From Halichondria panicea (lineage: Eukaryota; Porifera; Demospongiae; Suberitida; Halichondriidae), in NCBI RefSeq assembly GCF_963675165.1, contig NC_087392.1:4485442-4549441 (forward strand): a stretch of 64,000 nucleotides of DNA, read 5' to 3'. The position numbers and the translations under genes were made by a program. Positions within the stretch are counted from its first letter, which is position 1. Each line of letters opens with the position of its first letter. The notes below the pieces were generated by a model, which saw only the letters and a program-made list of their open reading frames with translations, made no database searches and was not told the DNA's origin. This document shows, one piece after another, positions 10,200 through 59,150 of this stretch.

Positions 10200-10204
10200 G
10201 TCTA

Positions 10205-10653: not shown

Positions 10654-10868
10654 AGAGTGGACGACTTGGGTGCCTATATATCCACCAAGACCAGTACGTA
10701 AGACAGGCCAAGCAGATCATGACACCCTTCACACTACGGAGTCACAAGTGCTGAGTCAGCTCACGGCCAAGGTGTCCAGTACGGAGCACTATCAGCTGAC
10801 ATAGAATAAGTGGACGTTGTACAAGGGCATGGCAGAGAGGTCAGTCAGGGTCAATTAGGGCTGACATG
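10654..10868 (+). pseudogene. SMARCAD1-like helicase exon remnant (AKQIM exon), copy 1
   Basis: After a mutated acceptor (CCATAG) the block reads in pieces as RQAKQIMTPFTLRS, then VSSTEHY, then WTLYKGMAERSVRVN. This matches the segment of SMARCAD1 with the pattern AKQIxKPFILRR, then a leucine-rich KQEQLYxGLF stretch. Frameshifts, an in-frame TAG in GACATAGAA and a donor changed to GTCAG make it nonfunctional. The downstream neighbour on the minus strand is the kelch fragment at 12315-13190. Confidence 0.6.
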
Positions 10869-11074
10869 GTCAGTGCCTGCAAGGGAATGTTGTGTGCCGG
10901 TTGGAAGAGTGTAGGTAGTTTGTGTTGTGGGTTAAGAGAATGGTTTAGCTAATGTGCAGAAGATTGCTTCCGTTCACAGTCCCTCAAACATTGTGCTGTC
11001 CTCAATATTGTAGCAGATGGTTGTTAATTCGGACCTGCTATGTTAACATGTACATTTTTAACTCTTAACATAAT

Positions 11075-11524
11075 CAAGAGTGCATAAGAAGAGAAGAGTG
11101 TCGAACTACTGATGCTTCTACACAAACACTGTACACAAAGTAACATGACATCCTGTCAATTGCACGTGAGCAACTCGCAATTGATGACGTTTGAGCATAA
11201 TTACGCAACTGCACAAAGGTTGTTAATAGTGAGTAAAGAGTGCAAGTGAAGAGGATCAACTCGACTATTGTCTCTATTTAGATGATTTTTGTGAAGAGAT
11301 CGTCTCCTATCAGTGTGCAGTGAGCAGCTCCACAAGCTCTGAACGTTGAATGCGAACAACTAGCTAGAATTGTTCGATTACCATACTCCTAAAAACGTCA
11401 CTGTTAACATTTATACTAGGAGATTACTATTAAATTTACGATACTTTATCACGTGCGAGTCAGGTTACTTTGTGCACAGTGAAGTATCAGTAGTTCGACA
11501 CTCTTCTCTTCTTATGCACTCTTG
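11075..11524. mobile_element. Foldback MITE, 450 bp, copy 1
   Basis: Imperfect inverted repeats of about 80 bp start CAAGAGTGCATAAGAAGAGA and end with the complement. A 7 bp ACATAAT lies on both sides (11068-11074 and 11525-11531). The homologous position near 38955 (TTAACATAATTATTGCAC) is empty and has one copy, which supports insertion. No coding region was seen. Confidence 0.8.
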
Positions 11525-12314
11525 ACATAATTATAGTTACTGCATGGGTATACTGCTCGTTCAGTTGAAGTAATTGACCTACTGTATAACTGATACCATA
11601 ATAATAGAAACTGGATTATTAGCGCTTACTCAACTATAAGCGTATCTTTATTTTAAGCGCATGCTCGCGCTTTTCTACGAAGGATACATTAGTGAATATT
11701 TAGAATTGATTCAGCTACTTTCGTTTATCTGTAAGCTAGCTAGCTTATCAATCTGGAAGCGCTCTCTGAGCACTGTTACCTTGTCTGATTATGCTGAGAA
11801 AATGTGAGACATATAGATGAGGTGACTTGGACCCTTTTGTTCCAGTTTCTGGTGAATATATGATTTTAATGTTGTAAAATATATAGATCCATGCAGTTAG
11901 GGTTGCCTGCTTGCCTTGCTTGCTCACTTTTAGCTAGCTTACGAGTCAGCTCTCATCACAGAGACATCCGGTTACTGGGTGGGGCTGGAAAATAACTGCA
12001 TTATAGGTCGAATATAAGCGTATTGAGCATTGCTATTGACCCCATGAGCGGCATGCGCTATAATAAATCAGTTTCTACGGTAATCTATTAATTTTGGTGA
12101 ATTAGGTTAGAGATCACCATAGTTTGCCTTATCTTAACTGTGTATGCATCAATCTATCTCACGTAATTAGAATAGAAATTGCCTATTATATTTCATCTAT
12201 CAAATTTAATGCTCACCAAATTTACTCTTGTATATGTCATGCTGATTGATAACTTTCAACAGAATGATCAAATCTTTTATTTGGTATAGCCTATACAATA
12301 TGACAAATTAGATA
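11525..12314. other. No gene recognised; spacer 3' of the kelch fragment
   Basis: It is homologous to 34233-35036 with scattered substitutions and small indels, clearly less similar than the region left of 10930. No gene was seen. Confidence 0.5.
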
Positions 12315-13190
12315 CTATACAAAAGTAAATACTTCACATTTTCTGTTTGTAGCATCTCCTCCCACCACCATCAGTTTGCTCTCAGGGAGGGCAGCAATGG
12401 AGCATGATGATCGAGATGTTGACATTTGATTAACGACAATCCATGATGTCATATTGTACTGATATATGTCCTTAGATCTACCTATATTGGAGTCCACCCC
12501 ACCCACTGCCAGCAGGTGGCCATTGATGGTAACAAGAGAGGAATAGTAAACTGGCAAAGGGGCAATCTTCTCCCATATAGCTGAGCTTGGCTCAGACTGA
12601 GTTAGTTGTCTTAATGAGCATCTGTACACTGAATACTTCTCTTGATCATTAGTTCGTGGGTGTATGTACACATAGTCTCCACAGATCGTTAAGGATGGGT
12701 GATCATTTGGCACAGGTAGTGAGGCAACGACAGACCATTGCCTGTTAGCAGTGTTTAAAATCTCGATAGTAGTTACAATTATTGAATCAGATCCCCTAGC
12801 CACTATAAGTGTGTTGTTAGCGTACACAACTCCAGGTCTCCTCCGTCTGGTTGGCATGCGAGGGAAGTATTCGACCCATTCGTTGTTAATGTAGCTGTAG
12901 AGTTTGTTACTATAGATGTGTGTGCCTGACACTCCCCCCACAGTTGTGAGCATGTCATCAACACTGACGATAGTGAAAGCGTTTTTAGGGCAAAGTGGTA
13001 ACTTGTGCCACTTATTGTTGCTGAGCTCGTAAACAGTTTTACTTCCATTGTTAAAGTATGCCTTGTCTCCTGTCACGGCTGATGATCCATACCACATATC
13101 AACGGGTGCATCCGGTAGTGACTCTATTGTAACAGGTTTCATTAGTGTACATGTAGCTTGATCATCTTGCAGTGTGACTTGGTGCATTAT
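12315..13190 (-). pseudogene. Kelch-only fragment of the kinase-kelch family (partner of K3)
   Basis: An open frame covers the complete kelch propeller (about 290 codons), ending in the family's usual CEVFTFV. Blades read YELSNNKWHKLPLC, SYINNEWVEYFP and WSVVASLPVP, and the last repeat ends KLMVVGGD. It matches the K3 kelch domain at 35037-35912 closely. At about 13190 the match ends abruptly in the last coiled-coil residues (MHQ), and kinase and coiled coil are absent. The first Met at 13205 lies in unrelated sequence. It is probably a truncated duplicate; expression from a new upstream promoter cannot be excluded, because the kelch frame itself is undamaged. Confidence 0.8.
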
Positions 13191-16100: not shown

Positions 16101-16316
16101 TTGACTGTGTTCCCGCTCCATGCATTTACTAGTTTATACTCATGATGTTACAACAGATAGACGTACGGCTCATTCCTGCTTGCTTGTTTCTACGCTATAA
16201 TTTTGGTGCTTTCCCCGACGAATCCTATAGCGATTTTTCAGATTGACAATGAATGTGTGTTTTGGAAAGATGTACTGTAATTTTGTATCACCAGAATGGC
16301 AGATAGCTTTCCCTTG
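13191..16316. other. Region without a recognised gene; candidate decayed exons
   Basis: There is no long open frame and no match to the repeated blocks. Two copies of an 85 bp segment lie at about 14525-14608 and 14993-15073; the second can be read as SANDVIALFEDILLISAPC before a stop. Exon-like segments with AG and GT borders occur near 13916-13954, 14703-14869 and 15662-15770. I could not assign them. They lie upstream of recognised SMARCAD1-like exons on the same strand and could be earlier exons of that gene. An R2 arm is present at 16150-16260. Confidence 0.4.
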
Positions 16317-16759
16317 TAGACGATTGGGTTCGTGAGTTTGAGGCCTGGTGTCCAGCCATGACAGTCATAGCGCACTAGGGTGAGTGCTTGTGTGTACAGT
16401 ACTGCTCTCACTAGAGCATGTCATCTACACAGTGTATGGTATTTGCTCTATGCATGTGAAGGGGCTGACTTGTATATGATTCACTGCAGGTTCCCAACAG
16501 GACATCAATCGTGATAACTTTGATGTCATCCTCACAACGTATGTATACAGTCACTATAATTTTATATTATACTCTGGCACTTGTTTGTTCCCGTGGTTCC
16601 AACTTCCAACTTATTGTTGACATTTGGAGGTACAATGTGTCAGGCTGAGGACAGGAAGAGTTCTTAGGAAGCTCTCTATAGACTGTCTCGTATACTGGAC
16701 GAGGGACACATGCTCAAGAACATGAACCTATTGCGATACACACACCTCTGAAAATACAG
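16317..16759 (+). pseudogene. SMARCAD1-like helicase exons upstream of K1 (three exons, decayed)
   Basis: Three exons are separated by short GT-AG introns. The first (about 16317-16380) reads DDWVREFEAWCPAMTVIAH then a stop, matching the SMARCAD1 motif DNWLREVNLWCP. The second (about 16489-16540) reads GSQQDINRDNFDVILTT, matching YNVIVTT. The third (about 16643-16759) matches the DEGH exon but carries changes that break the frame. TGTP and AKQIM exons are missing before K1. These match Fun30-family chromatin remodellers, which use ATP to slide or exchange nucleosomes. This copy is dead. Confidence 0.7.
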
Positions 16760-17067: not shown

Positions 17068-19284
17068 CTATACAAAAGTAATTGTTTCACATTTTCTTTC
17101 TGTACGATCTCCACCCACTACCATCAGTTTGTTCCCGGGGAGGGCAGCAGTAAGGCATGCTGCTCGAGATATCGACATTTGACTAATAACAATCCATGAT
17201 GTCTCGTTGTACTGATATATGTCCTTAGTGTTATCTCCTTTGGAGTCCAGCCCACCCACTGCCAGCAGATGGCCATTGATGGTAATAAGAGAGGAATAGT
17301 AAATTGGCAAAAGGGAAATTTTCTCCCATATAGCTGAGCTTGGCTGGGACCGAATTAGTTGTCTTAATGAGCATTTGTACACTGAATACTTCTCTTCAGC
17401 ATCACTAGTTCGTGGGTGCATGTACACATAGTCTCCACAGATCGTTGTTGATGGGTTATCGGTTGGTACAGGTAGTGAGCTAACAATAGACCATTGCATG
17501 TTAGCAGTGTTTAGTATTTCGACTGTATTTAAATATTTTGGATCGCACCATCCCCCAGTCACTACAAGTGTGTTGTTATCGTACACAGCTCTTGGTCTCC
17601 TCCGTCCAGTTGGCATGGGAGCGAAGTGTTCGTCCCATTTGTTATTAAAGTAGGTGTAGAGTTTGTTACTATACTTTTGTGTGTCTGACCACCCCCCCAC
17701 AGTTGTGAGCATGTCGTCAACACTGACGATAGTGAACTCTTTGTTAGGGCAAGGTGGTAACTTGTACCACTGATTGTTGCTGAACGCATAAATAGTTTTA
17801 CGTCCGTATGTATTAAAGTATGCCTCGTCTCTAATTACGGCTGATGATGATCCATACCCCATACTAACAGGTGCATCAGGTAGTGATTCTATTGTAACAG
17901 GTTTCATTGATGTAGCTTGCTCATCTTGCAGTGCGACTTGATGCATTTGAGTCGATAGATCGTGAATTTCCTCGTTTTTGCTTTCCAACGTTTGTTTCAG
18001 TTGAGTCACTTCTCTGTCTCGTTGATCGATGGCTTGTTGGAGGGCAGCAGTGTTCCCCTCACTTAATTGCAACTCTTGGTTGAGTCTCCTCAGCTGTCTC
18101 TCCCTGGCTTCAGCCTCCTGTTGAAGGGTTACTTTGTCTTGTTGAAGTGTTTGGTTTTTTTGCATTGCTTGGCCCAGTCTTGTAGTGACTTGACAAATTT
18201 CAATGTCTTTTGTATATAACTGTTCATTGTTACGTGTTATTGTTTCTTGATTTTCTGCTGTAATCTGTTCATTTGCTTGTATTTGCTCAGTTAAAATCTG
18301 TTGATTTGCTTGTAGTTGTTCTCTAAGCATCTGGTGCAGGTCTTGTTGGGAGCTTTCCTCGTACCGTTGTGTCCTCTTGAGAGCATCTAGTGTTTGGCAA
18401 AGCTGTTGGGAAGATGGCCGTTCAACATCTCTGTCTTTGAGACAGTGACGAGCAATCAGCAGTAGAGGGTGGGTTGGCTCAATCAGGTTCATGTGTGCTT
18501 CTCGTCTTTCCAGTTCTGGAATCGGCAATCTAGCTTCAACTGTGCGACCTGGACTTCGTGGATCAGGAAGTTGAACAGTGTCAAATCGATCTGTTGGCTT
18601 TGGAAACTGTCGAGTTGTGGTCTGAACTAGAAGCACACCAAATGAGAAGTTGTCTAGTTTCTCTGTGTACACTGGTGGTTCGTTTAGTGCCTCGGGAGAC
18701 ATGAAGGCTGGTGTTCCCGGGCATGTGGTCATTGTGGCTAGTCGGGAGACGTTTATGTCCGTGAATTTGGACATTCCGAAATCGGTGACTTTGGCTCGAC
18801 TGCCTGCAATCAGTAGGACATTGTTGCTGGAGAGATCGCGATGGATGATCCCATTGGAGTGGAGAAAGGCAAGTGCTTGAGCTATGTCATAGCATACGTT
18901 GATTTGGATGTGGTATGGAATGTCTCCAGGTGATGACTCCAGGAAGTGCGTCAGACTCTCGTCCATGAGCTCCATGAGAAGAACTGGTGCATTTGTGTCG
19001 AGATCGCGATAGGTCCCCAAGTACTGTACAATGTTAGGGTGGTTGATACGACTCAGAAATGCACACTCTGTTTCGAATCTTCTAAACGGGTGTCTATGTT
19101 CTTTACCAGGATCTGGAGCAGTCATTTGGAAGAGCACTGGATAGAGTAGCTTGGCAGCACAGGGTAGCTGGTCACACTTGGCTTTACACACTGCCCCGTA
19201 GGAGCCAGTACCAAGGATATCATTCTTAAAGAGTTGAACATTTCTGAATATGTACTCTTGTTCACTTTCTTGTCTCTCAGCCAT
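17068..19284 (-). CDS. K1: TKL-type kinase-coiled coil-kelch protein, intact
   Basis: A single open frame of 738 codons starts at MAERQESEQ (ATG ending at 19284). An in-frame ATG eight codons upstream exists, but MAERQ is conserved in all paralogues. Kinase domain residues about 18-290: P-loop G25-T-G27-x-x-G30, Lys45, acidic helix-C FETECAFL around 70-77, HRD 148-150 in HRDLSSNN, DFG 168-170, then CPGTPAFMSPEAL and RPSSQQLC. Residues about 305-445 form a Q/E-rich coiled coil. Residues about 460-738 are five or six kelch repeats (paired GG and W, for example MLTTVGGW and HLLAVGGL). HRDLSSNN fits the TKL group. No signal peptide or membrane segment is visible. Substrate and role are unknown; kelch propellers usually bind proteins, and the coiled coil may dimerise. 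Confidence 0.92.
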   Translation of the reverse strand: MAERQESEQEYIFRNVQLFKNDILGTGSYGAVCKAKCDQLPCAAKLLYPVLFQMTAPDPGKEHRHPFRRFETECAFLSRINHPNIVQYLGTYRDLDTNAPVLLMELMDESLTHFLESSPGDIPYHIQINVCYDIAQALAFLHSNGIIHRDLSSNNVLLIAGSRAKVTDFGMSKFTDINVSRLATMTTCPGTPAFMSPEALNEPPVYTEKLDNFSFGVLLVQTTTRQFPKPTDRFDTVQLPDPRSPGRTVEARLPIPELERREAHMNLIEPTHPLLLIARHCLKDRDVERPSSQQLCQTLDALKRTQRYEESSQQDLHQMLREQLQANQQILTEQIQANEQITAENQETITRNNEQLYTKDIEICQVTTRLGQAMQKNQTLQQDKVTLQQEAEARERQLRRLNQELQLSEGNTAALQQAIDQRDREVTQLKQTLESKNEEIHDLSTQMHQVALQDEQATSMKPVTIESLPDAPVSMGYGSSSAVIRDEAYFNTYGRKTIYAFSNNQWYKLPPCPNKEFTIVSVDDMLTTVGGWSDTQKYSNKLYTYFNNKWDEHFAPMPTGRRRPRAVYDNNTLVVTGGWCDPKYLNTVEILNTANMQWSIVSSLPVPTDNPSTTICGDYVYMHPRTSDAEEKYSVYKCSLRQLIRSQPSSAIWEKISLLPIYYSSLITINGHLLAVGGLDSKGDNTKDIYQYNETSWIVISQMSISRAACLTAALPGNKLMVVGGDRTERKCETITFV

Positions 19285-19579
19285 AGCTATATAGTGACTT
19301 GTTAGCAATTAAACTATACAGGAGTGTACAAACTATAGTGAATAGTTATTTGTGCATGTGCTTGTTGGGTGTTTTAGATTATAGCCCTTGATTATAGTGA
19401 TTATGTGCAGAGTAGGTATTCTAGCCGGATGTGCATCATTAATATCTATGGTTTCAAAACCTTATAAAAATTGATGGCGGTTACCTAGCAACAAAACTTC
19501 ATTGAATGTATGACCTGCATGTTCATTGTAGATTTTTGTACCCCATACTGAGCACCGTCTGTCTCTCCACTATATACAG

Positions 19580-21063
<1,484 letters not shown>

Positions 21064-21118
<55 letters not shown>
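21064..21118. repeat. (GT)n microsatellite, 27 units
   Basis: A pure GT run between the downstream 1.1 kb repeat and the hairpin at 21121. The equivalent tract after the upstream repeat is 25588-25720. Confidence 0.95.
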
Positions 21119-21119
<1 letters not shown>

Positions 21120-21120
21120 C

Positions 21121-21178
21121 TTTACCCACAAGGGTGGGGGATTGGGACCCCACCCTTGTGGGTAAAGGTCCCAATCCC
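21121..21178. other. Strong hairpin with alternative pairing
   Basis: Arms 21121-21139 and 21148-21166 are exact 19-base complements (TTTACCCACAAGGGTGGGG) with an 8-base loop. A second complementary pair, GGGATTGGGACC (21138-21149) and GGTCCCAATCCC (21167-21178), uses the loop, so two mutually exclusive folds or a pseudoknot are possible. It lies just beyond the 3' end of the Penelope-like ORF2, so it would be in the 3' UTR of the element RNA. I did not find a hammerhead core here. Confidence 0.7.
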
Positions 21179-21307
21179 CTACATGGGGAACGGTACGCGC
21201 ATGCGCAATCTCAGTATCTGTTTTAGATTTTGCACAGCTATCTTTTTAAATGGATCGAGGTGTATTTACTGCAAGTCATGTGACTTAATTAAAAACACGT
21301 GGATACA

Positions 21308-23659
21308 TTATGATAATACATTTAGTCCATGTGGAATAATTGTTCTAAGTGTAGCTATCCAGTAGTGTTCTAAAGCTTGGAGTTCTGTGAAGGACGTTGT
21401 TGCGTCAATACACTGTACTTTCAGGTTTCTGACAGAGTGATCGGTAAAGTTGAAGTGGTTGCTTATATACGTTCTTACTTTGTTGAAAATATTGCTACGA
21501 TGATGATTGATTCTAGTTCGAAGCGTTTGAGTGGTGTAACCCACATACTGTTTCTTGCAATGTGAGCATGTAATTAGATATATGAGATATCTTGAATTGC
21601 AGGAAAATTGGTGTCTGATTGGATACGTTTTTTCTGATTTCGATGATCTGAAAAATCTATTACATACTAGGTGTTGACATGTTGCACAGCTCGGTTTCAT
21701 ACACTTACTTATTCGAGTGTGTTGTGTGAGAGTGGGAACGCTTCTTGTAATTGTGTGTTGGTGGACTTGATCAAAGGTTATTTCAGTTCTGAGCGTTTGT
21801 TCTTCGTTTAAACTGATTTTGGCCCTAACGAGTTCTTTACCGAGATTTTGGTGTTTCAGATTGATTATTCTGGGACTGGGTAATAGTAAGCCTTTGTAGT
21901 GCTGTAGTGTGACACTTTTTAGTAATTGGAAATTTGGAGGCGAGAGGCACTTGAAAATGGGTGGTCTTACTCTGGCAGGAGGTTTTTTCATTTTCCGAAG
22001 TAACTGAGGTCTTCTCTCATATGACACGGAATTGATGGTTTTGTCAATGAGGGTTTGGGGATAGTCTCGTTTTTTAAGGCGTATGCTAAGGAGCTGAGTC
22101 ATGGTTTGAAACTCCTGGATGGTGGTGTTTGTGCGCACAAGTCTGGTACATTCTCCGGTAATGATGGATTTGAAGATGTGTTTCGGATGGTTTGATGTAT
22201 AATGTAGGTACTGGTAGAGATTTTGTTGTTTTTGGAAGGTTTTTGTGTCTAGTTTTCGAGATTTGTGGAAGTGGGGACCTTTGTAAATTGTCATATCTAG
22301 AAACGAGACTTGTTGAGATGAGTAGGAGTATTTGTAACTTAATTTTTGGTGGGATATATTGAGTTCGGATAGGAAGCTGATTAGCGAGTTTTCATCATGC
22401 TGCCACACTATAAAAATGTCATCTATGTATCTTTTAATCAGGAGAGGTTTAGCTGGTTGTTTTTCTAAAAATCTTCTGATGATTACCGACATGAATATGT
22501 TAGCGATGGTGGGTGAGAACGGGGCTCCCATTGCTGTACCTTGTATTTGTTGGAATGTAACTGGTCCAAACTCGAAATAATTGTGATTAACGCATATTTG
22601 TAGAAGTTGGATGATTAGATTTGGGTCTAGCAGCGACGTGTACCTATGACTTAACATTTCGGTGTATATTATCTGCAGACATTCCTCTTGAGGAATGGAG
22701 GGATACAATGAGTCGACGTCAATTGCTACTAATAGCGCATTGTCGGGAATTTGTAAGTCTTCTAGAATTAGTGACAAACAAGCGGAATTTTGTAGGTAAT
22801 CTTCGTACGTTTGAGCTAGGGGTTGAAGCACATGATCTAAGAGCTTACTAGCTGGCGTTAGTGGAGAATTACAGTTTGCAACTATGGGTCTGACTGGTGG
22901 CAGTTTTTTGAATTGTTTATGAATTTTCGGAATGCCGTAAAATTGTGGAATTTGGAAAATGTCTTTATTGGGGAGAACGAATCGTTTTAGCCGCTTATCG
23001 GTACTAGTGAGTGTGGTATGGTATTTTGACAGAACTTCTTGGAGTTGGTTGGTGATTTTGGTGGTGGGATACTCGGCGGTTCTTTTATATACCTTATCGT
23101 CTAGTAAGATTAGGAGGCATTGTTGGACGTAGTCTGTGGTGTCCATTATAACTACGCCTAAGTTCTTATCTGCTGGCTTAATGGTGACTCGATTTTTTTG
23201 TTTTTTGAATTTTTGTAGTGCTAAAGATTCTGCGAGTGTGACATTTGTTTTGGGCTTGAAGATTTCGTGTAACTGGTCATTGATATTATCTTTTGTGACG
23301 GAAATGTATTGTTCGACATTTCTGTATCCACTATTGTATGTATCATTAAAAGAAGAGTATGTGGTTGTTGGTAGGAATCGCATTGGTCTATGTACTTTTT
23401 CTGTCGTTGTGGGTATACCACTTTTTACTGGTTTCGGCGTGCGATAATATATAGAGTTAGTGTATATTCTTCTAAGTGACTTTGAGTATTCGTTAAACTC
23501 TCGTAACAGTTGTAATTTGGGTTCCGTACTACATAAGTTTTTGGTGAGTGCGAAGCTTAGGCCTTTATTTAGTAATTGTGATTCGGCAGTGGTGAGGGTG
23601 AGTGAGCTCAGATTGTGGACGCACCTGGTGGGTTGTGTTTCGGTTGGGGGCCTTCCCAT
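21308..23659 (-). CDS. Penelope-like element ORF2: reverse transcriptase with GIY-YIG endonuclease
   Basis: An open frame of 783 codons. RT core motifs in order: KPADKNLGVVIMD near residue 165, YGIPKIHK near 245, LVAIDVDSLYPSIP near 310 (motif A Asp), QGTAMGAPFSPTIANIFM near 365, RYIDDIFIVW near 409 (catalytic DD), VSFLDMTIY near 455. A Cys-rich stretch (CMKPSCATCQHLVC) precedes a GIY-YIG endonuclease (LIYLITC near 690, KKQYVGYTTQTLRTRI near 700). This order, with the endonuclease at the C-terminus, is that of endonuclease-positive Penelope-like elements. The frame is intact, so the copy may be young. It overlaps ORF1 by about 52 bases in another frame. Confidence 0.95.
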   Translation of the reverse strand: MGRPPTETQPTRCVHNLSSLTLTTAESQLLNKGLSFALTKNLCSTEPKLQLLREFNEYSKSLRRIYTNSIYYRTPKPVKSGIPTTTEKVHRPMRFLPTTTYSSFNDTYNSGYRNVEQYISVTKDNINDQLHEIFKPKTNVTLAESLALQKFKKQKNRVTIKPADKNLGVVIMDTTDYVQQCLLILLDDKVYKRTAEYPTTKITNQLQEVLSKYHTTLTSTDKRLKRFVLPNKDIFQIPQFYGIPKIHKQFKKLPPVRPIVANCNSPLTPASKLLDHVLQPLAQTYEDYLQNSACLSLILEDLQIPDNALLVAIDVDSLYPSIPQEECLQIIYTEMLSHRYTSLLDPNLIIQLLQICVNHNYFEFGPVTFQQIQGTAMGAPFSPTIANIFMSVIIRRFLEKQPAKPLLIKRYIDDIFIVWQHDENSLISFLSELNISHQKLSYKYSYSSQQVSFLDMTIYKGPHFHKSRKLDTKTFQKQQNLYQYLHYTSNHPKHIFKSIITGECTRLVRTNTTIQEFQTMTQLLSIRLKKRDYPQTLIDKTINSVSYERRPQLLRKMKKPPARVRPPIFKCLSPPNFQLLKSVTLQHYKGLLLPSPRIINLKHQNLGKELVRAKISLNEEQTLRTEITFDQVHQHTITRSVPTLTQHTRISKCMKPSCATCQHLVCNRFFRSSKSEKTYPIRHQFSCNSRYLIYLITCSHCKKQYVGYTTQTLRTRINHHRSNIFNKVRTYISNHFNFTDHSVRNLKVQCIDATTSFTELQALEHYWIATLRTIIPHGLNVLS

Positions 23660-24279
23660 AAAAAAGGAGTTTGTGATGTTTTGGGAATTTTTTGGGCTGT
23701 TGGGTGTTGAGACATTTCTCTACACCGTTTTCTGCGAGTATTGCGTTTCGCACCGAGAGAAAGCCTTGGCGGCCGATGTTTTTTATTTAGTCTGATTTGC
23801 AACTCAGGTGTGGGGACGTGTCCGTGGATCTTGTTTTCTTTTAGGAATTTTCTGTATTGTATTTGGATATCTGTGTCACGTATTTCAAATTTAAGTAAAT
23901 CTCGTTCTGTGTCATTCACAAGAGATTCTAGTGCCGTCTTTGTTTGGGCCAAACTCTGGTTGTTGCTGGTTATTACTGCTTCTAGATATTTTGTGAAGAT
24001 GTGGGAGTATTCTGATAGAAATTGTTGATGGAAAGTGTCGTTTTCGCAGGTTAAGTTAGGTTTCGGTATGAATTCTTCCGGGATCGCTCCTAATTTCAGT
24101 TGGTTTTGCCTTTGAATGTTTTCCTCTAGGATAGAGACAGCTGAGCGAAGTTTCTGATACTGAGCCGATTTGGCTTTTAGGAATTCTTTAGCTTGTTTAT
24201 TCATGGCTGTGAAAACATTTAAGTGTTGAAATTCAGTATGTATATAGCCGATATTCAAGTAGCCATTCAGTCTCTTCAA
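23608..24279 (-). CDS. Penelope-like element ORF1 / N-terminal region
   Basis: An open frame of 223 codons just upstream of and overlapping the RT frame. It is Gln/Glu/Lys-rich with coiled-coil character (AKSAQYQKLRSAVSILEENI) and ends in a basic, proline-rich tail (KKHRPPRLSLGAKRNTRRKR). It could be a separate nucleic-acid-binding ORF1, or the N-terminal extension of the RT joined by frameshifting or reinitiation. A second possible start is MNKQAKEF, 25 codons in. I recognise no domain. Confidence 0.7.
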   Translation of the reverse strand: MKRLNGYLNIGYIHTEFQHLNVFTAMNKQAKEFLKAKSAQYQKLRSAVSILEENIQRQNQLKLGAIPEEFIPKPNLTCENDTFHQQFLSEYSHIFTKYLEAVITSNNQSLAQTKTALESLVNDTERDLLKFEIRDTDIQIQYRKFLKENKIHGHVPTPELQIRLNKKHRPPRLSLGAKRNTRRKRCREMSQHPTAQKIPKTSQTPFLWEGPQPKHNPPGASTI

Positions 24280-24488
24280 ATTAATTGGTTTTCAGTTAAA
24301 TAAATTTCAGTTAAATAACCTAGGGTTGTGAGAAGTGGACCACATAAACTAAGGGCAGTGACTTCATATCGAAACCAGATTCCTCGACTGAGCCCGAAAC
24401 GAGAGGCCCAGCCACATAAGGCGCAATGCCAGAGGGCATAGACCCAACGCCACAGACTCAGCCCCGTACTCGAGGAGCACGTGTGTGT

Positions 24489-25721
<1,233 letters not shown>

Positions 25722-26104
25722 AGATTGGAAAATAAAAAATAAAGTCGCGTGTATACACGTCCATTGAAATCCGGGTCTCTGACTCAAACGGGATTTCTAT
25801 CAAAAGATGACCGTCTTCCTTGTAGTTCATTGAATACACATTATCTATATACATCGAGCCCGTCTTATAAACAGTTTCTAATTTGTATGCTGTGTACTAA
25901 TGCTGAGAACACCCTGTTGGAGGCACTAAAGCTAGAACAGCAATTATAGTTAAACACATTGGAATAGCAACCGGGGGTAGCTATAGATATCCGACCTTGA
26001 GAATCAGAAACGGTTGGTTAAGAGGCGCGCCAACTCTCCCCACACATCTAGCACATTCCCAGTTGCATATTTTAATTACAGATTTTAATTACAGTCACGT
26101 GTTA

Positions 26105-49719: not shown

Positions 49720-50543
49720 ACTAGCCTATATAGCCTATAGCCTAGCCAGCTCACAGCTACAACACCAATATAATGATGTTGAGTTCTTATCTTTGTGTGG
49801 AGGGATATCGATTCTATAGACAGGCTAGACAAATTAGCTAGAGACAGGCTCCTATATAGCTATATAGGTAACAACAACTAGAGTAACCACCGATTTCGAA
49901 CACATGATATTTTCAAACGCTTGTTCTCGAAGACAGCGGCTCAGATCACTAAGCTGATAGTACCTTTGTATAGACAAGGTAGGCTATGTTTGAACTAAAT
50001 TAGTTGAGTGTTTGGCCTCCGCCGAGGAAGCTTTTGTTGGCCGTAAGAATAGAGCCTTACGTAGTCTATATACCTAGTTACTATCAGCAAAAAATAACGA
50101 AAATAATGGTGCATGCGAATTGTTCGTTTTAGCATGGATTTATGTTTTCTCCTTTCTTGCATGTCATTTCTTTGGTGTAACGGTTACTTCGAAGCAGTCT
50201 ACAAATTTTAAGTGACATATAATTATTATCACATATCACATACAAACACGCACTTTGAAATGTGAATTACGCATTAACCGTGCATTTATCTTATGGCTTA
50301 CAGATTGTGTGTACACAGCAAGATCATCTCATACCATACCGTGAGTGATTCGATTGGAGGTTGCCCTTGAGTTATTTTGAATTACCATCTAACTTGAACT
50401 TGGATAGTCCAAATGTATGATTTTATAATCTTCTGAAAGCGTAAATAGATAGATGCATATCTTTAGAACTTCCTTGTACAATTCACAGTTCTTACTACAC
50501 TGTCCCCCCCCCCCCCCCCCATACACACACACCCATTCCACAG
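49720..50543. other. No gene recognised; spacer
   Basis: No coding region was seen. The last 70 bases carry a C-run of 17 and a CA-run forming the usual polypyrimidine tract before the AKQIM exon. Confidence 0.5.
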
Positions 50544-50763
50544 AGAGTGGACGAGTCGAGTGCCTACTACCAGTATAGCAAGTGAGACAAGCCATGCAGA
50601 TCATGACACCCTTCACACTGCGGAGGCTCAAGTCACATTTAAATGCTGAGTCAGCTCCCGGCCAAGGTGTCCAGTACGGAGCATTGTCATCTGGCGGAGA
50701 CTCAGTGGACGTTGTACAGAGGCGTGGTGGAGAGGTCACTCAGGGTCAATCAGGACGGACATG
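50544..50763 (+). pseudogene. SMARCAD1-like AKQIM exon, copy at the 3' side of K6
   Basis: AG acceptor at 50542-50543 and GTGAGT donor at 50764. It reads RVDESSAYYQY, then QAMQIMTPFTLRRLKS, a short extra segment, then LSQLPAKVSSTEHCHLAETQ, then WTLYRGVVERSLRVNQDG. Small insertions (ATTTAAATG in place of a Gln/Val pair) break the frame. Confidence 0.65.
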
Positions 50764-50855
50764 GTGAGTGCCTACAGGGGAATGTTGTGTGTTGGGAGAT
50801 TGTGGTTAGTTAATAGTGTAGCAGATGTTGCCTGTTATATGCAACTCTTAACATA

Positions 50856-51695: not shown

Positions 51696-52436
51696 ATGCA
51701 ACTTTTTCTTCAGTTATGCAAAATACACGAGGAATACACGAAATTGGTAAGGACCGCGTGTGTAAAAACCGGCTATCAGGCCGGACGTACCATACATACA
51801 GAGAAATTTTCTACCGTCGTCACTACGTTAGGGCTCGCTACGCTCTCGCCCCAATAACTTTCATTAAATCTTTTACATATAATACAAAATAAAAAAGAAC
51901 AAATTAGGGGCACTATACAAAAGTAAGTATTTCACATTTTCTCCATTTATCATCTCCTCCGACAACCATCAGTTTGTTCCCAGGGAGAGCAGCAGTGTGG
52001 CATATATATCGAGGTTTAGAAATTTGACTAATGATAGTCCATGATGTCACGTTGTACTGATATATGTCCTTAGTCTTATTTCCATTGGAAAACCATCCTC
52101 CATTGGAGTCCTCCCCACCCACTGCCAGCAGGTGGCCACTGACGGTAACAAGAGTGGAATAGCGAACTGGCAAAGGGGTAATCTTCTCCCATATAGCTGA
52201 GCTGGGCTGGGACTGACTTAGTTGTCTTAATGAGCATTTGTACACTGAATACTTCTCTTGAGCATCTCTAGTGTGAGGGTGTATGTACACATAGTCTTCA
52301 CAGATCGTTGATGATGATTGAGTGGTTGGCACAGGTAGTGAGCTAACAATAGACCATTGCATGTTAGCAGTGTGTAATATCTCGATTGTATTTAATTTTT
52401 TTGAATCACAATATCCCCTGGCCACTACAAGTGTGT

Positions 52437-54517
52437 TTTTTTTTTTTTTTTTTTTTTTTTATAATAATTCTGCAAAATGCATGGATACACTAGTAGCATA
52501 TTACGCTAACCTAATGTGCGCCCTGTATATATTACTTACAATAGCGAGTACAAATTAAAAATAAAGACTAATATTATACTAATGCAAGTGACAGAGTACA
52601 TTTCTCTTAAATGACAAAATCGATGTACTTTCCTGCAGCTCCAGTGGTAATTCATTCCACACAGATATTGCCTTTGGGAAAAAAGAGTTCGCATATGCAT
52701 TTGTTCTGCAAATTGGTCTTTCAAACTGTATATTTTTTGTGCTTCTTAGATTGAGAGGGCATACTCTTCTTTCCAGTGGTGGATCAGGGAATTTAAAGTT
52801 ACCATTTATTACCTGGTAAAGGTATGATAGCTTCAGGTACAATCTTCTTGTAGAAAGGGACGGTAGGTCCACAGTATCTAATAGGGAGTCGTAGTCCATA
52901 TTCCAAAGTTTTGTGCAGATTTTAAGGGCAAACTTTTGTACTTTTTCTATTTTGTGAGAATTTGTTTTTTGGTGTGGATCCCAAACAGGGGCAGCATATT
53001 CCAGTTTTGATCTCACAAGGGAGATGTAGAGTTGTCTTAAACATTCTAGTGACGAGTGGCCATAGAACTGTCGGTAAATTATACCAACCTGCTTGCAGGC
53101 ATTTCTGCACATTTCTTCTATGTGTTTTGACCATGAGAGGTCGTGAGAGATCCACACGCCAAGGTACTTGTAGTGGTCAACTTTAAGTAGGGGACGTCCA
53201 CTGATATTGAGACACATGTTGGGAAGTGGTGGGCTGAATTTTCTTGATATAGTCATGTATTTACACTTGCTTTGGTTAAACAAGAGTACATTTCTTTCAG
53301 ACCATGCTTGGAGTTGATCAATATCTCCTTGCAATTTTATATAATCTTCAGGAGATTGAATAGGATGGTAAAGAAGAAGATCATCAGCATAGAGCAAGAG
53401 ACTTCCTTCATTTTGATGTAGATCGATGTCATTTATATAGATTAGGAAAAGAAGAGGTCCCAGCACCGAACCCTGGGGAACTCCTGACACAACCTCCGAG
53501 ATATTTGATGACTTTCCATTTATTATGACATATTGTGATCTATTCCTGAGGTAGCTTGCTACCCAAGATACCAGGTGGGGATCTAGGTTCAGATTGGTTA
53601 GCTTACTCATCAATATCGAGTGAGGAACCTTGTCAAATGCTTTTTTGAAATCAAAAAAGACTGCACATACACTCTGACCATCTTCAAGCAGTTTGTGCCA
53701 ATTGTGCACTGCCGTAAGCAGCGCACCTGTGGTGGATTTTCCTTTAGTGAAACCCCATTGTTTATTCGAGAGGAAAGATATATCTTTTAGCTGTTCTAAG
53801 ATTTTACTATACATATGTTTTTCCAGGAGCTTTACAAGGATGGAGAGTAGCGATATAGGGCGATAGTTTAAGGGATCAGACTTGTCGTTTGATTTGGGTA
53901 TTGGAGTGACATGAGCCAATTTCCAGTCGTATGGCAGTTCACAGTTTTTTATCGATATATTGAAAAGCATTGTTATACTTGGGGTGATCGTTTCAGCAGT
54001 AGCCTTTAGCATTTTGGCGGAGATTCCATCAGGACCATTTGCTTTTGTGGTGTCTAGATTTGATAACAGGTTGAATACTTCATCTTCTGTGCAGCGTAAG
54101 TTCTCAGGTAAGTCTCTTGTTGGTTGTTTAAAGGAATTTGGGTCAAGAGGAGGAAGTGAATGGTTGAAATTTGCATAAAACTGTTTGTTAAGGACCTGGG
54201 CCTTTTCTTCATCCTGTTCGATTTTGCAGCCATTTACTACAAGACATGGGATAGAGCTATCTGATTTTCTCAGGTATTTCAGAGCTGTCCAAAATTTTTT
54301 TGACTGAGGCTTGAGGGTGCTAAAGAAATCTTGTTTACTCCGTCTGAGAGTGGTCACAACCTTATTTCTGATCTGTTTGTAGGTTGCAAAATCAGAGGGT
54401 TCGTTGTATTTTCTGGCAAGTCTGTAGTAATAGTTTCTCTTTTTGATATCTCTTATTATATTTTTCGTTAGCCAAGGAAGATTCTTTCGGGTTGCGATTT
54501 CTGCTGTGGGAATACAA
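52437..54517 (-). mobile_element. 5'-truncated LINE inserted in K6
   Basis: A poly-T run at 52435-52460 (poly-A tail on the minus strand) marks the 3' end. The other border is at about 54517, where the K6 kelch sequence resumes as TGTTATTAGCG (intact copies read TGTTGTTAGCG). Only a four-base TGTT is plausibly duplicated, so the target duplication is short or eroded. No endonuclease domain is present. Confidence 0.88.
52579..54357 (-). CDS. LINE reverse transcriptase (CR1/Jockey-like), N-terminally truncated
   Basis: An open frame of 592 codons; coding similarity extends a little upstream, through RLARKYNEPSDF, to the truncation. RT motifs in order: KSNDKSDPLNYRPISLL, KQWGFTKGKSTTGALL, AVFFDFKKAFDKVPH (motif A), VSGVPQGSVLGPLLFLIYIN (motif B), LLLYADDLLLY (motif C, catalytic DD), then a YKYLGVWI thumb motif. 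This order is usual for CR1/L2/Jockey-type non-LTR retrotransposons. The frame is intact to its stop although the element is 5'-truncated, suggesting a recent insertion. It cannot move by itself. Confidence 0.92.
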   Translation of the reverse strand: MTTLRRSKQDFFSTLKPQSKKFWTALKYLRKSDSSIPCLVVNGCKIEQDEEKAQVLNKQFYANFNHSLPPLDPNSFKQPTRDLPENLRCTEDEVFNLLSNLDTTKANGPDGISAKMLKATAETITPSITMLFNISIKNCELPYDWKLAHVTPIPKSNDKSDPLNYRPISLLSILVKLLEKHMYSKILEQLKDISFLSNKQWGFTKGKSTTGALLTAVHNWHKLLEDGQSVCAVFFDFKKAFDKVPHSILMSKLTNLNLDPHLVSWVASYLRNRSQYVIINGKSSNISEVVSGVPQGSVLGPLLFLIYINDIDLHQNEGSLLLYADDLLLYHPIQSPEDYIKLQGDIDQLQAWSERNVLLFNQSKCKYMTISRKFSPPLPNMCLNISGRPLLKVDHYKYLGVWISHDLSWSKHIEEMCRNACKQVGIIYRQFYGHSSLECLRQLYISLVRSKLEYAAPVWDPHQKTNSHKIEKVQKFALKICTKLWNMDYDSLLDTVDLPSLSTRRLYLKLSYLYQVINGNFKFPDPPLERRVCPLNLRSTKNIQFERPICRTNAYANSFFPKAISVWNELPLELQESTSILSFKRNVLCHLH

Positions 54518-56511
54518 TGTTATTAGCGTACACAGCTCCAGGTCTCCTTCGTCCAGTTGGCATGGGAGGGAAGTGTTCGATCCATTTGTTGTTGATGTAG
54601 CTGTAGAGTTTGTTACTATAGACTTGTGTGTCTGACCCCCCCCCACAGTTGTGAGCATGTCATCAACACTGACAACAGTGAAGTGCCTATTAGGGCAAGG
54701 TGGTAACTTGTACCACTGATTGTTGCTGAACTCATAAACAGTTTTACTTCCGTATGGACTAAAGTATGCCTTGTCTCCAATCACGGCCGATGATGATCCA
54801 TAATCCATACTAACAGGTGGCTCAGGTAGTGACTCTATTGTAACAGGTTTCATTGGTGTAGCTTGCTCATTTTGCAGTGCGACTTGGTGCATTCGAGTCG
54901 ATAGATCGCGAATTTCCTCGTTCTTGCTTGCCAACGTTTGTCTCAGTTGAGTCACTTCTCTGTTTCGTTGATCGATAGCATGTTGGAGGGCAGCAGTATT
55001 CTCCTCATTTGATTGCAACTCTTGGTTGAGCCTCCTTAGCTGCCTTTCTCTGGCTTCAGCCTCATGTTGAAGGGCTTGGTTTTCTTGTGTTGCTTGGCCT
55101 AGTGTTGTAGTAAGTTGACCATTTTCAATGATTTTTGCATGTAACTGTTCATTGTTCTGCATTACAGTTTCTCGATTTGCTTGTATTTGTGTGTCTTTTT
55201 CCATTATAAGCTGTCGATTTTCTTGCAGCTGTTGTTCTCTCATTTGTATTTGTTCATCTTTTTCTATGATAAGGTGTTGATTTGCTTGTAACTGTTCATC
55301 TTTCTCTCTAAGTATCTGGTGCAGGTTTTTTTTGGAGCTCTCCTGGTATCGTGGTGTCCTCTTGAGAGCATCCAGTGTTTGGCAAAGCTGTTGGGAAGAT
55401 GGTCGTTCAACATCTCTGTCTTTGAGGCAGTGGCGAGCAATCGGCAGTAGAGGGTGGGTGAGCTCAATCAGGCTTATGTGGGCTTCCCGTCTTTCCAGTT
55501 CTGGAATCGGTAAATTAGCTTCAACTGTGCGACCTGGACTTCGTGGATCGGGAATTTGAACAGTGTAAAATGGATCTGTTGGATTTGGAAACTGTCGAGT
55601 TGTGGTCTGAACTAGAAGCACACCCAATGAGAAGTTGTCTAGTTTATCTGTGTATATCGGTGGTTGCTTTAGTGCCTCTGGAGACATGAAGGCTGGTGTT
55701 CCCGGGCATGTGGTCATTGTGGCTAGTCGGGTGATGTTTATGTCCCTGAATTTGGACATTCCGAAATCGGTGACTTTAGCTCGACTGCCTGCAATGAGTA
55801 GAACATTGTTGCTGGAGAGGTCGCGATGAATGATCCCATTGGAGTGGAGAAAGGCAAGTGCTTGAGCTATGTCATAGGAAAGGTTGACTTGGATGTGGTA
55901 GGGAATGTCTCCAGGTGATGACTCCAGGAAGTGTGTCAGACTCTCGTCCATGAGCTCCATGAGAAGAACTGGTGCATTTGTGTCAGGATCGTGATAGGTC
56001 CCCATATACTGTACAATGTTGGGATGATTGATATGTTTTAGAAATGCACACTCTGTTTCGAATCTTTTAAACGGGTGTCTATGTTCTTTGCCAGGATTGG
56101 GAGCAATCATTTGGAAGAGCACTGGATAGAGAAGCTTGGCAGCACAGAGTAGCTGGTCACACTTGGCTTTACATACTGCCCCGTAGGAGCCAGTACCAAG
56201 GGTATCATTCTTGAAGAGTTGAACATTTCGGAATATGTATTCTTGCTCAGGGTGGTCTTGTCTCTCAGCCATAGCTAGTGACTTGTTAGCAAACTACAGG
56301 TGTACAGTTTATAAGCTCAGTTAGAAAAGTGTAATAATTTTTGTTTTTGGGGCGTTTGTTTATATAGGCATTGAAGTTTATTCATGAGTGACTTGTGTAT
56401 GTTAACAATGAATGCCGTTGTTTAAATCATGTGTTGTTGCTCACCTTTTCATTACAAGTGTGTATCTGTGCATCTTTGTACCCCCATACTGAGCACCCTT
56501 CTCCACTACAG

Positions 56512-56735
56512 GTGATGAGGTCAACAAGAGGATGGACGTGATGGTAGACCTTCGCAAGGCCACCAACCATCCCCTACTCCTGAGACACCACTACACTGAC
56601 CACACCTACACTGCATGGTGAGGGCCATCCAAAGGAGTCTAGTCACAGAGATGCTGCTCCTAACCTCATGTGAGAAGATATGAGTGTAATGTCCGTTTTT
56701 GAGCTGCACAACCTCCGTACCCATGCCATTATAAG
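56512..56735 (+). pseudogene. SMARCAD1-like NHPLL exon upstream of K6
   Basis: Acceptor CTACAG at 56506-56511 and a GTGTGTG donor at 56736. It reads DEVNKRMDVMVDLRKATNHP, then LLLRHHYT, then VRAIQRSLVTEMLL in a shifted frame and EDMSVMSVFELHNLR. A TGA precedes EDMSVM. It lies 240 bases from the K6 ATG on the opposite strand. Confidence 0.7.
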
Positions 56736-56885: not shown

Positions 56886-57607
56886 AATTGTGATAAATTT
56901 GATGTCATCCTCACAACGTATGTACTGTCACTAATTTAATATCGTACTACTCTGGTACTTGTTTAATTTCCGTGATGGTTCCGATTTAAGACTGTTCACA
57001 TTTGTGTTAACCTGACCTACATGTATTATAGCTGTAGGTACAATCTGTGCATCTGCTGTGAGCATTTCTACACAGCTGCTATAGATCTCATGCACACAGT
57101 TGAATCTGTTTACTCAATGCCTCATGCAGTTATGGTCTATCCCTGTGTCCCATGCATGTACAATGTGTGCATAGGTCAGGCTGAGGACAGGATGTTCTTT
57201 AGGAAGCTCTCTCTAGACTGTCTTGTACTGGACGAGGGACACATGCTCAAAAACATGAACTCACTGCGATACACACACCTCATGAAAATACAGGTATATA
57301 TGCTCACAAACATAGTGTGCTTCTGTGTTTACCAGAGACTGTAATAATCTTTTTGTGCCTGTACGTGCATGTAGTGCTTGTGTTAGCTGTACAGTAAATC
57401 TCTGTACTGGCCCTGTCATGCTCAAACCTTGTCCCAGTGATCGACTCACACAATCCTGTGATGGTATTGCTACAAGCTAAGAGGAGGCTCCTGCTCACGG
57501 GGACTCCACTACAGAACAACCTGCTGGAGCTCATGTCTCTACTCAGTTTGGTTATTCCTTTCGAGCAGTTCTCTGCTCAAATCAAAAAAACCTAGATAGG
57601 GTAGGGT
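56886..57607 (+). pseudogene. SMARCAD1: SMARCAD1-like helicase exons: ILTT, DEGH and TGTP exons
   Basis: The best preserved stretch of the host helicase. The end of the first exon reads DKFDVILTT (to 56917, donor GTATGT). The second (57180-57293, AG acceptor, GTATAT donor) is fully open: AEDRMFFRKLSLDCLVLDEG, then HMLKNMNSLRYTHLMKIQ, containing the Walker B-type DEGH box (motif II) used by SMARCAD1. The third (about 57470-57607) reads [20 protein letters not shown], then [19 protein letters not shown], containing motif III. Family knowledge: Fun30/SMARCAD1 remodellers act on chromatin in the nucleus. Whether this copy connects to usable upstream exons cannot be seen; a TAG at the end of the third exon and the decayed neighbours suggest not. 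Confidence 0.75.
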
Positions 57608-57803
57608 GAGCCTCGGTGATTTGATTTGCCCTTGAGTCATTTATATTGGAATTTCAGTGGATGTATTAGATGCATTTTTCCAGTTTACAAAACTAAATTT
57701 TGATTTAGCCAAAATAATGTTGCTCTATTCCCCATGCAGTATATATAGTTCACAGTTCTTATACTACACTGCCCCCCCCCCCCCACACACACACATCCCA
57801 CAA

Positions 57804-58027
57804 AGAGTGAACAAGCCTTGAGTGCTTACTATACCAGGAGCAAGTGAGACAGGCCAAGCAGATCATGACACCCTTCACACTGCAGAGGCTCAGGTCACAA
57901 GTGCTGAGTCAGCTCTCGGCCAAGGTGTCCAGTATACGGAGCATTGTCAGCTAACGGAGACTCAATGGACATTGTACATGCAGGGGCGTGGTGGAGAGGT
58001 CACTCAGGGTCAATCAGGGCCGACATG
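57804..58027 (+). pseudogene. SMARCAD1-like AKQIM exon, copy at the 3' side of K7
   Basis: It reads QVRQAKQIMTPFTLQRLRSQ, then VLSQLSAKVSS, then TQWTLYMQGRGGEV in a shifted frame, with donor GTGAGT at 58028. The acceptor AG is mutated (CACAAAG) and small insertions (ATA, CATG) break the frame. It continues the exon order of the preceding feature at the expected spacing. Confidence 0.65.
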
Positions 58028-58393
58028 GTGAGTACCTGCAGGGGAATGTTGTGTGTTGGGATATTGTGGTTAGTTTGTTGTGGGTAAGAGAGGCAGTGGG
58101 TATGGTTTGATGAGCAGAGATTGCTTCCGTTCACAGTCCTTCAAACATTGTGTTGCTCAATATATTGTATCAGATGCTGCTATTTACTGCATGGGTTTAC
58201 TGCTCGTTTAGTTGAACAAATGTGGACCTACCATATATATTATATATATAGCTGGTACATATTGAATGGTCGTACAGTTACCAATGTTGTAGGAAGTGCT
58301 TATGCCTCAAAGCAGCAACAAACCAAGTGTATAATTATCATATAAAATTTTACACAATACAAAAAACACAATAAAGCACATGCAAAATACTTA

Positions 58394-59150
58394 TTAATGT
58401 ACAAAAGTAAATATTTCACATTTTCTGTGTGTATCATCCCCACCCACCACCATCAGTTTGTTCTCAGGGAGGGCAGCAGTGGGACATGATGATCGAGGTG
58501 TTGAAATTTGAATAATTATATTCCATGATGTCAAGTTGTACTGATATATGTCCTTAGTCTTATCTCTATTGGAGTCCCTCCCACCCACTGCCAGCAGGTG
58601 GCCATTGGTGGTAACAAGAGTGGAATAGTAAACTGGCAACGGGGCAATCTTCTCCCATATAGCTGAGCTTGGCTGGGACTGAGTTAGTTGTCTTAATAAG
58701 CATTTGTACACTGAATACTTCTCTTGAGCATCCTCAGCTCGTGGGTGTATGTACACATAGTCTCCACAGATTGTTGTTGATGGTTGAGTAGTTGGCACAG
58801 GTAGTGAGCTAACAATAGACCATTGCATGTTAGTGGTGTTTAATATTTCGACAGTAGTTAAATTCTTTGAATCGCGTAGTCCCCCAGCCACTACAAAGAT
58901 GTTGTTAGCGTACACAGCTCCAGGTCCCCACCGTCCAGTTGGTATGGGAGGGAAGTGCTCGACCCATTTGTTGTTAATGTAGCTGTAGAGTTTGTTACTA
59001 TAAGGTTGTGTGCCTGAATATCCTCCCACAGTTGTGAGCATGTCATCAACACTGACGATAGTAAAATACTTGTGAGAGCAAGGTGGTACCTTGTGCCACT
59101 GATGGTTGCTAAACTCATGAACAGTTGTATAGATCCGTATGTATTAAAGC
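58394..59150 (-). pseudogene. K7: 3' kelch fragment of a kinase-kelch gene, truncated by unrelated sequence
   Basis: The kelch frame is open for about 215 codons (MLTTVGGYSG to CEIFTFVH), and further kelch homology without the frame reaches about 59150 (SNHQWHKV, then a frame break at GTTGTATAGATCC). There the family sequence stops abruptly, at the position of the FNTYGS segment of blade 1, and is followed by CAGAGGAGGTTGAACGCG, which is not found in any other copy. Kinase, coiled coil and first blade are missing. Confidence 0.85.

Follow-up and report, generated by a model that had tools for sequence, protein, structure and literature searches.

Can a gene that lies in an intron of another gene multiply and diversify while the copies of its host decay? 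This question is raised by a stretch of 64,000 nucleotides from the sponge Halichondria panicea (hereafter the window), which corresponds to C16:4485442-4549441, where C16 is contig NC_087392.1 (5,828,375 bases) of a 131-Mb genome in 39 contigs. The original prediction, made from the letters of the window, was that genes for a protein kinase joined to a kelch domain (kinase-kelch genes) are nested antisense in a repeated intron of a SMARCAD1-like helicase gene. Our analysis makes it rather probable that a kinase-kelch gene was inserted once, antisense, into the intron of a SMARCAD1-like gene, that the pair was copied together about 30 times, and that the nested gene was kept and diversified while the hosts decayed as passengers.

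Kinase-kelch genes lie antisense to decayed helicase exons in the window

Host exon blocks were located by tblastn with human SMARCAD1 and then with the H. panicea host protein. The exons are lettered a to o, which are labels of this analysis: h is the AKQIM exon, i is the NHPLL exon and f is the DEGH exon. As predicted, human SMARCAD1 recovered the exon blocks of the + strand, and the SNF2 (PF00176) and Helicase_C (PF00271) domains were found in the host proteins P0121 and P0122. The best 120 of 7,927 relatives are headed by the pair of sponge proteins; next come two proteins that are unnamed or from JGI (59-60%), and after them proteins of 52-55% identity, mostly named SMARCAD1. Because the CUE domain (PF02845) was not found in P0121 or P0122 at E 0.01, we call the host SMARCAD1-like; this domain is also missing in several proteins named SMARCAD1 (for example, P0133 and P0144) among the same best 120.

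The kinase-kelch genes of the window are intronless, are encoded on the - strand and lie between the AKQIM and NHPLL blocks of the + strand host (Table 1). The NHPLL exon had been placed 230-300 bases beyond the kinase ATG. The measured distances are 299 bases (1087 to 1386 and 19281 to 19580), 283 bases (37253 to 37536) and 242 bases (56269 to 56511); in the copy that carries an insertion, the distance is 956 bases (41466 to 42422). Near the right end of the window, the DEGH (57159-57293), TGTP (57461-57592) and AKQIM (57832-58077) exons follow one another on the + strand in the order of the host. Protein-kinase and kelch domains were found with Pfam in three full window copies. The glycine loop, the AAK lysine, HRD, DFG and SPE are hallmark motifs of active protein kinases, and all five are present in 10 of 10 intact open reading frames (ORFs; 705-753 amino acids).

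The integrity of the hosts was measured on the cores of 15 helicase exons (1,662 nt). Copy A4, which is located elsewhere on C16, was used as the reference because it is open. The eight host regions taken from the window and from the sequence immediately to its left retain 1-4 of the 15 cores, and every one of them has 4-10 frameshifts. Host sequence adjoining the intact window kinases (three regions) contains 27 frameshifts in 1,187 nt, and the three kinase ORFs (705-745 amino acids; 6,564 nt) are open. Thus, in the window, the nested gene outlives its host, as had been proposed. Several window copies are not independent because 18195-35910 is a recent tandem repeat of 1-13188 (98.8-99.9% identity outside inserted or missing pieces; 99.94% between 1-1770 and 18195-19964). 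The identity of this repeat extends left beyond the window at 99.98%. The other window units diverge by 8-20%.

Host genes elsewhere on C16 carry the kinase gene in the same intron

At C16:5.37-5.43 Mb, four hosts (A1, A4, A5 and A6) possess all 15 helicase exon cores, and all four carry a kinase gene in the h-i intron. The nested ORFs encode 720 amino acids in A4 and A6, 740 in A1 and 734 in A5. A GT donor follows exon h and an AG acceptor precedes exon i in A1, A2, A4, A5 and A6. The antisense position of the kinase gene in the AKQIM-NHPLL intron, which had been read from scattered exons in the window, was therefore observed in hosts with all 15 cores. The host is a multi-exon gene of 11-12 kb, and the nested gene is a single exon of 2.2 kb. 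A fragment of human SMARCAD1 matched five A copies at 80-88% and one C copy at 74% in the motif V-VI exon.

The A6 host has no frameshift or stop in the 15 cores relative to A4 and its N-terminal exon is also open. It is open in all parts tested, and the NCBI protein P0122 corresponds to it. The A4 host is free of lesions in the 15 cores and is open from the methionine at which NCBI P0121 begins. Both loci contain the intron and the kinase, and the original prediction, which would have failed if an intact gene had lacked this intron, was upheld in this check. The A1 and A5 hosts have one stop each in the 15 cores. In A1, a further stop lies just beyond the measured core, where exon h ends, and the frame changes upstream of the start methionine of P0121; the N-terminal exon of A5 is open. 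Decay in host regions B and C is intermediate between that in the A copies and that in the window copies, and 17 of the 19 host regions measured have missing exons or lesions. The claim that the host has decayed in every copy is correct for the window copies. Genome-wide it is rejected, because A6 is open everywhere tested and A4 is open in the 15 cores. At three loci of 5.56-5.59 Mb (L042, L043 and L045; C16:5562710, 5575661 and 5591855), the AKQIM exon nearly abuts the start of the NHPLL exon, so the intron and the kinase were deleted there.

In the A5 host (C16:5412024-5412161), motif III is TETP instead of TGTP; the same copy also has a stop within exon h. P0121 has the TETP form and skips the stretch that contains the A5 stop. 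P0122 omits the TGTP exon, though an open TGTP exon exists at C16:5426027-5426182.

Nested and host genes are both represented by predicted proteins named by NCBI. For the nested gene, named proteins are identical to copies A1, A5, A6 and C1 and to the copy at C16:4002276. Alignment of the 400 bases in front of the nested genes mostly failed (median distance 0.86 for 45 pairs; A1-A5 and A4-A6 did align), and therefore no promoter is definable for them. The 420 downstream bases align well among the A copies and poorly overall (median distance 0.67). Of 12 copies, one of which lacks a true 3′ end, eight have signals of the poly(A) type within these 420 bases, and the signals are uninformative.

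Host and nested gene were copied as a unit

A genome search with one kinase gave 83 matches, which were merged into at least 57 copies, of which C16 has 39 and the other contigs 18; this number is a lower bound because 60 of 1,316 candidates were scored. All 30 DNA matches of the AKQIM exon in the genome are on C16. For the NHPLL exon the fraction is 30 of 31, the remaining one being an 84-bp match on contig C1. A host exon is present on the expected side, antisense and within 3 kb, at 31 of the 39 C16 kinases and at 0 of the 18 others. Because the host exon matches are all but one on C16 and the pairing is distributed in this way, it is not due to chance. Among the 39, an antisense NHPLL exon lies beyond the 5′ end of 24, an antisense AKQIM exon beyond the 3′ end of 19, and both are present at 12. 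Thirteen copies have both exons on the expected sides, 12 of them antisense to both; the thirteenth (5386536) is located at a rearrangement.

The units on C16, about 30 over 1.8 Mb, were counted by similarity matches, and a minority was read individually. One copy read directly, C16:4002276-4004495, encodes a protein identical to NCBI P0028 and adjoins a decayed NHPLL exon. Units align without a break from the host exons across the introns into the kinase gene, at up to 97.8% over 6.3 kb, which bears out the claim that the pair was duplicated as a unit. We constructed a midpoint-rooted tree of 46 proteins, namely 11 fetched nested kinases, 7 other named proteins from C16, 3 proteins of the same species from other contigs and 25 database proteins. 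In this tree, the 11 nested kinases group together as a clade (support 0.927), and the smallest clade that includes P0028, beside which a host remnant lies, has 16 members, all from C16. The C16 proteins P0024 and P0032 are outside the nested clade, and P0032 pairs with a protein of another contig. Judged from these sequences, the simplest account is a probable single insertion of the kinase followed by segmental duplication.

The 18 relatives on other contigs (C2, C3, C5, C8, C9, C10, C12, C13 and C14) have no host exons within 3 kb. The wider kinase family is large: of the 7,995 database proteins scored, 4,887 matched this kinase at E 1e-30 or lower.

The kinase domain is conserved and the kelch domain diversifies

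Ratios of nonsynonymous to synonymous substitution rates (dN/dS) were calculated for 55 pairs of 11 ORFs, the broken copy at 35037 included. The kinase domain has a median of 0.32 (range 0.18-0.45), the linker one of 0.46 (54 pairs) and the kelch part one of 0.91 (0.61-1.59). Among the three intact window kinases, dS is 0.20-0.23 and the dN/dS of the kinase domain is 0.18-0.29. Site models M1a and M2a were then compared on nine ORFs with an implementation written for this analysis. For the kinase, twice the log-likelihood difference (2dlnL) in favor of M2a was 1.8, which is not significant. For the kelch part it was 175.3, with 9.5% of sites at omega 8.4. The kelch value was 207.0 on the kinase topology, 80.5 and 113.8 for the two halves, and 40.8 when A1, A4 and A5 were used alone (P 1e-9). 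As far as sequence comparison can tell, the kinase domain is conserved and the kelch propeller is under strong diversifying selection.

Selected sites lie on the predicted ligand face of the propeller

A structure model of the 745-amino acid protein was obtained with AlphaFold. Its kelch part is confident, with a predicted local distance difference test score (pLDDT) of 75-94 per block from residue 481. In Foldseek, the model is most similar to kelch domains of human proteins (NS1-BP, KLHL20 and others) and to designed kelch propellers (E 1e-15 to 1e-18), and Pfam kelch models match three copies. BTB and BACK domains are not among the Pfam matches of the three full copies. Therefore, the nested protein is Keap1-like in the propeller only and is not a member of the Keap1/KLHL family. 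A long helix of the coiled-coil type is also predicted; the protein would consist of a kinase, a coiled coil and a kelch propeller.

At a posterior above 0.9, 16 selected kelch sites were found in reference numbering and two more in columns where the reference has a gap. In the model, 15 of the 16 are in loops, all of them alternate loops, and none is in the intervening loops; site 718 is at the start of a strand. Alternate loops of a propeller form one face. The face with the selected sites has 97 loop residues and the other face has 39, so the face test alone is modest. A blade alignment to Keap1 was also used; it was built blind to the selected sites, and the 14 ligand-contact residues of Keap1 were taken from PMC6891428. 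In four in-register blades, 8 of 12 selected sites fall on Keap1 contact columns, which make up 18 of 171 residues (P 1.1e-6). When all six blades are taken as aligned, the numbers are 9 of 16 sites and 25 of 265 residues (P 1e-6). Diversifying selection thus appears to act on the predicted ligand face, in the manner expected of an immune or allorecognition receptor, and the unusually fast change of this predicted face suggests that a recognition role is likely. In the accessible part of a study of microbe-associated molecular patterns in two other sponges, kelch-motif genes are among the regulated genes, and their identity with the present family is not stated there (PMC6208332).

Proposed course of events and alternative explanations

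We propose that an intronless kinase-kelch gene inserted once, antisense, into the h-i intron of a SMARCAD1-like gene and that host and nested gene were then copied together about 30 times by local segmental duplication on C16. Selection would retain and diversify the nested gene, and most host copies would decay as passengers; extra host copies would be free to decay because one good copy would suffice. Duplications that cut the 11-12-kb host could still carry the 2.2-kb nested gene whole. The nested protein would be a signaling kinase. If its propeller works like those of Keap1 and KLHL proteins, this face may bind varied peptide or protein ligands, and such binding might alter the activity of the kinase or its assembly via the coiled coil.

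Several observations weigh against this proposal. The A4 host, our reference, has a 226-bp deletion and a frame change upstream of the helicase part. For eight of the 39 C16 copies, the 3 kb on the expected side contain no antisense host exon, and three C16 copies have an expected-side exon on the same strand (one of these is also among the 31 paired copies). Members of the nested clade may occur elsewhere without a host, given that close copies on C8 and C12 are outside the tree. The AlphaFold model is confident in the kelch part only and is weak in much of the kinase domain. The dS of the kelch part is about three times the flanking divergence, and gene conversion can inflate site tests. Finally, the kinase data reject the kelch tree in the approximately unbiased test (4e-5); the kinase tree is not rejected by the kelch data (0.096).

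The last two points would be explained if the kelch signal were produced by gene conversion with diverged paralogues and not by diversifying selection, which we consider unlikely. In windows of 300 columns, A1, A5 and A6 mostly diverge by 0.00-0.05 over the helicase exons, the introns next to them and the kinase domain. Values of 0.06-0.15 are found for most kelch windows and for the linker, except that the linker value of A1-A6 is 0.035. The last kelch window, which extends into the intron, shows low divergence among these three copies, and high values also occur in some windows with exons or gapped intron, reaching 0.10 around exon h and 0.25 near exon c. Kelch dS is 0.06-0.08 (A4-A6 excluded) and the adjoining intron diverges by 0.012-0.027 among A1, A4, A5 and A6. 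Because kelch dS exceeds the divergence of the flank, and with the partial conflict between the trees, gene conversion likely contributes. However, the excess consists of replacement sites in the loops of one face, it recurs in each half and in only three sequences, and it overlaps the contact columns of Keap1. Gene conversion does not account for the location of the selected sites.

It is also conceivable that segmental duplication proceeded without selection and that nested ORFs are open merely because the copies are young. The newest copies are indeed near-identical (99.94% in the window repeat; dS 0.004 between the A4 and A6 kinases), and several nested copies are broken. However, the three window kinases are open at dS 0.20-0.23 beside hosts with 27 frameshifts, and their kinase-domain dN/dS is 0.18-0.29, which makes this explanation quite improbable. 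Selection for helicase dosage, with the kinase as the passenger, is less credible still. It would fit the two hosts that are lesion-free in the 15 cores and the host dN/dS of 0.12 (A5) and 0.23 (A6) against A4, but 17 of 19 host regions are damaged, and 10 of the kinase ORFs fetched have stayed intact, with diversification in one domain.

Repeated entry of the kinase into the same intron, by site-specific insertion or retrocopying, could be imagined from the lack of introns in the nested gene and from the 18 relatives off C16 without host exons. We rejected independent insertions, which are very improbable, because identity extends from the host exons across the intron into the kinase, the nested copies fetched for the tree are monophyletic, and 12 of 13 doubly flanked copies are antisense to both exons. 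Equally improbable is a false duplication in the assembly, which would suit the window tandem repeat (98.8-100% identical over long parts) but not the other window units, which differ by 8-20% and carry different lesions, nor the proteins that are 98.9-99.9% identical to four copies and are encoded on contigs of different length, hence in other records.

A single insertion followed by joint duplication would have several consequences. Nested genes are usually treated as single pairs, and one sponge genome offers a series of an open host, hosts with one lesion and scraps of hosts, so that the dependence of a nested gene on its host is testable within one animal. The data suggest that selection on an inner gene may multiply, and mostly ruin, the copies of a conserved gene that is unrelated to it. 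A large sponge kinase family with a recognition-like kelch face is a candidate innate sensing system in an early-branching animal phylum. More tentatively, sponges could possess an undescribed recognition system of intracellular kinases with hypervariable kelch ligand faces, the intron-borne growth of which on one chromosome of Halichondria would have copied and wrecked a chromatin remodeller some 30 times; this is possible, although we regard it as doubtful.

Features of the window

The coordinates of the nested genes and of the host remnants are collected in Table 1.

Table 1. Kinase-kelch genes and host exon remnants in the window, with blocks located by tblastn
Feature	Positions	Strand	Remarks
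Kinase-kelch gene, 5′ part	5-1087	-	Runs left of window to C16:4484318; same as copy 17068-19284
NHPLL exon	1386-1595	+	Decayed
Kinase-kelch remnant	5152-6303	-	Linker and kelch; internal stops
GLGKT and AKQIM exon remnants	10304-10870	+	Frameshifts and stops; AKQIM block 10683-10870
Kelch fragment	12315-13187	-	Truncated kinase-kelch copy
Host exons d, e and f (DEGH)	16310-16754	+	Decayed
Kinase-kelch ORF	17068-19284	-	Intact; 738 amino acids
NHPLL exon	19580-19789	+	Decayed
Kinase-kelch remnant	27856-29007	-	Duplicate of 5152-6303
Host remnants	33007-33573	+	Duplicate of 10304-10870; AKQIM block 33386-33573
Kinase-kelch copy	35037-37253	-	In-frame stop near 5′ end; HHD and DFE replace HRD and DFG
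NHPLL exon remnant	37536-37604	+	
AKQIM exon	38576-38766	+	Frameshifted
Kinase-kelch ORF	39232-41469	-	Intact; 745 amino acids; host exons flanking on both sides
NHPLL exon	42422-42601	+	Decayed
TGTP and AKQIM exons	43102-43668	+	Decayed; AKQIM block 43462-43668
Kinase-kelch ORF	46231-48348	-	Intact; 705 amino acids
AKQIM exon	50541-50768	+	Decayed
Kinase-kelch gene	51916-56269	-	Split by reverse-transcriptase ORF (52579-54519)
NHPLL exon	56511-56721	+	Frameshifted
DEGH, TGTP and AKQIM exons	57159-58077	+	In host order
Kelch fragment	58400-59125	-	Truncated copy

The reverse-transcriptase ORF at 52579-54519 (646 amino acids; PF00078) interrupts the kelch part of the gene. Long perfect (GT)n runs (1609-1899, 19803-19964 and 25588-25720) adjoin NHPLL exon remnants, and GT runs are found at the same donor site in intact NHPLL exons too. 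A recent element at 19957-25642, with a GIY-YIG and reverse-transcriptase ORF (21308-23719, - strand) between identical direct repeats of 1,162 bp, sits in the (GT)n run beside an NHPLL remnant and is missing from the other tandem copy. We take it to resemble a Penelope-like element. Identical + strand frames of 166 amino acids at 9245-9745 and 31948-32448 are possibly a retroelement end. An open frame of 225 amino acids with CxxC pairs (59113-59790, + strand) adjoins the last kelch fragment. A Pfam search of the ORFs 9245-9745 (+), 59113-59790 (+), 60845-61309 (-) and 23608-24291 (-) gave no match. A GA-rich low-complexity tract of about 380 bases (45320-45702) creates spurious ORFs on both strands.

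Comparison with known systems

Nested genes are common in animals (PMC8527503). In a search of titles and abstract openings, in which few subscription papers were covered, we found no paper on this locus, on a sponge kinase-kelch family or on such an array.

The closest parallel that we have seen is the LRRTM genes, which are nested antisense in introns of vertebrate alpha-catenin genes (PMC3933685). As in the sponge, the nested gene is on the opposite strand, encodes a binding module of repeat domains, occupies one conserved intron and was duplicated with its host. In some lineages, the host was lost and the nested gene kept (lrrtm3 in clawed frogs and presumably lrrtm4). The LRRTM pairs number three or four, presumably arose by whole-genome duplications and underwent one-off losses. 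In contrast, the sponge has about 30 units, which were formed by local duplication, are present at many stages of decay in one genome and carry a diversifying binding domain. The omp gene in capn5 of fishes is also nested antisense and co-duplicated, and a short region upstream of it drives its expression. However, the host is conserved there and the nested copy is lost (PMC13378369), and the sponge shows mostly the reverse.

For the protein, the comparison is with the propellers of Keap1 and KLHL proteins (PDB 4xmb, 6gy5 and others). The kelch fold is shared, and about half of the selected sites fall on contact columns. Unlike those proteins, the sponge protein combines its kelch domain with a protein kinase and a predicted coiled coil, and Pfam gave no match to BTB or BACK.

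Tandem arrays of recognition receptors, such as NLRs, KIRs and plant receptor kinases, grow, accumulate pseudogenes and combine conserved signaling parts with diversifying recognition parts. The sponge array also grows and contains pseudogenes, a conserved kinase and a diversifying kelch domain. It differs from these arrays in that its unit includes an unrelated chromatin-remodeller gene and in that a kelch propeller, attached to a kinase, serves as the variable module.

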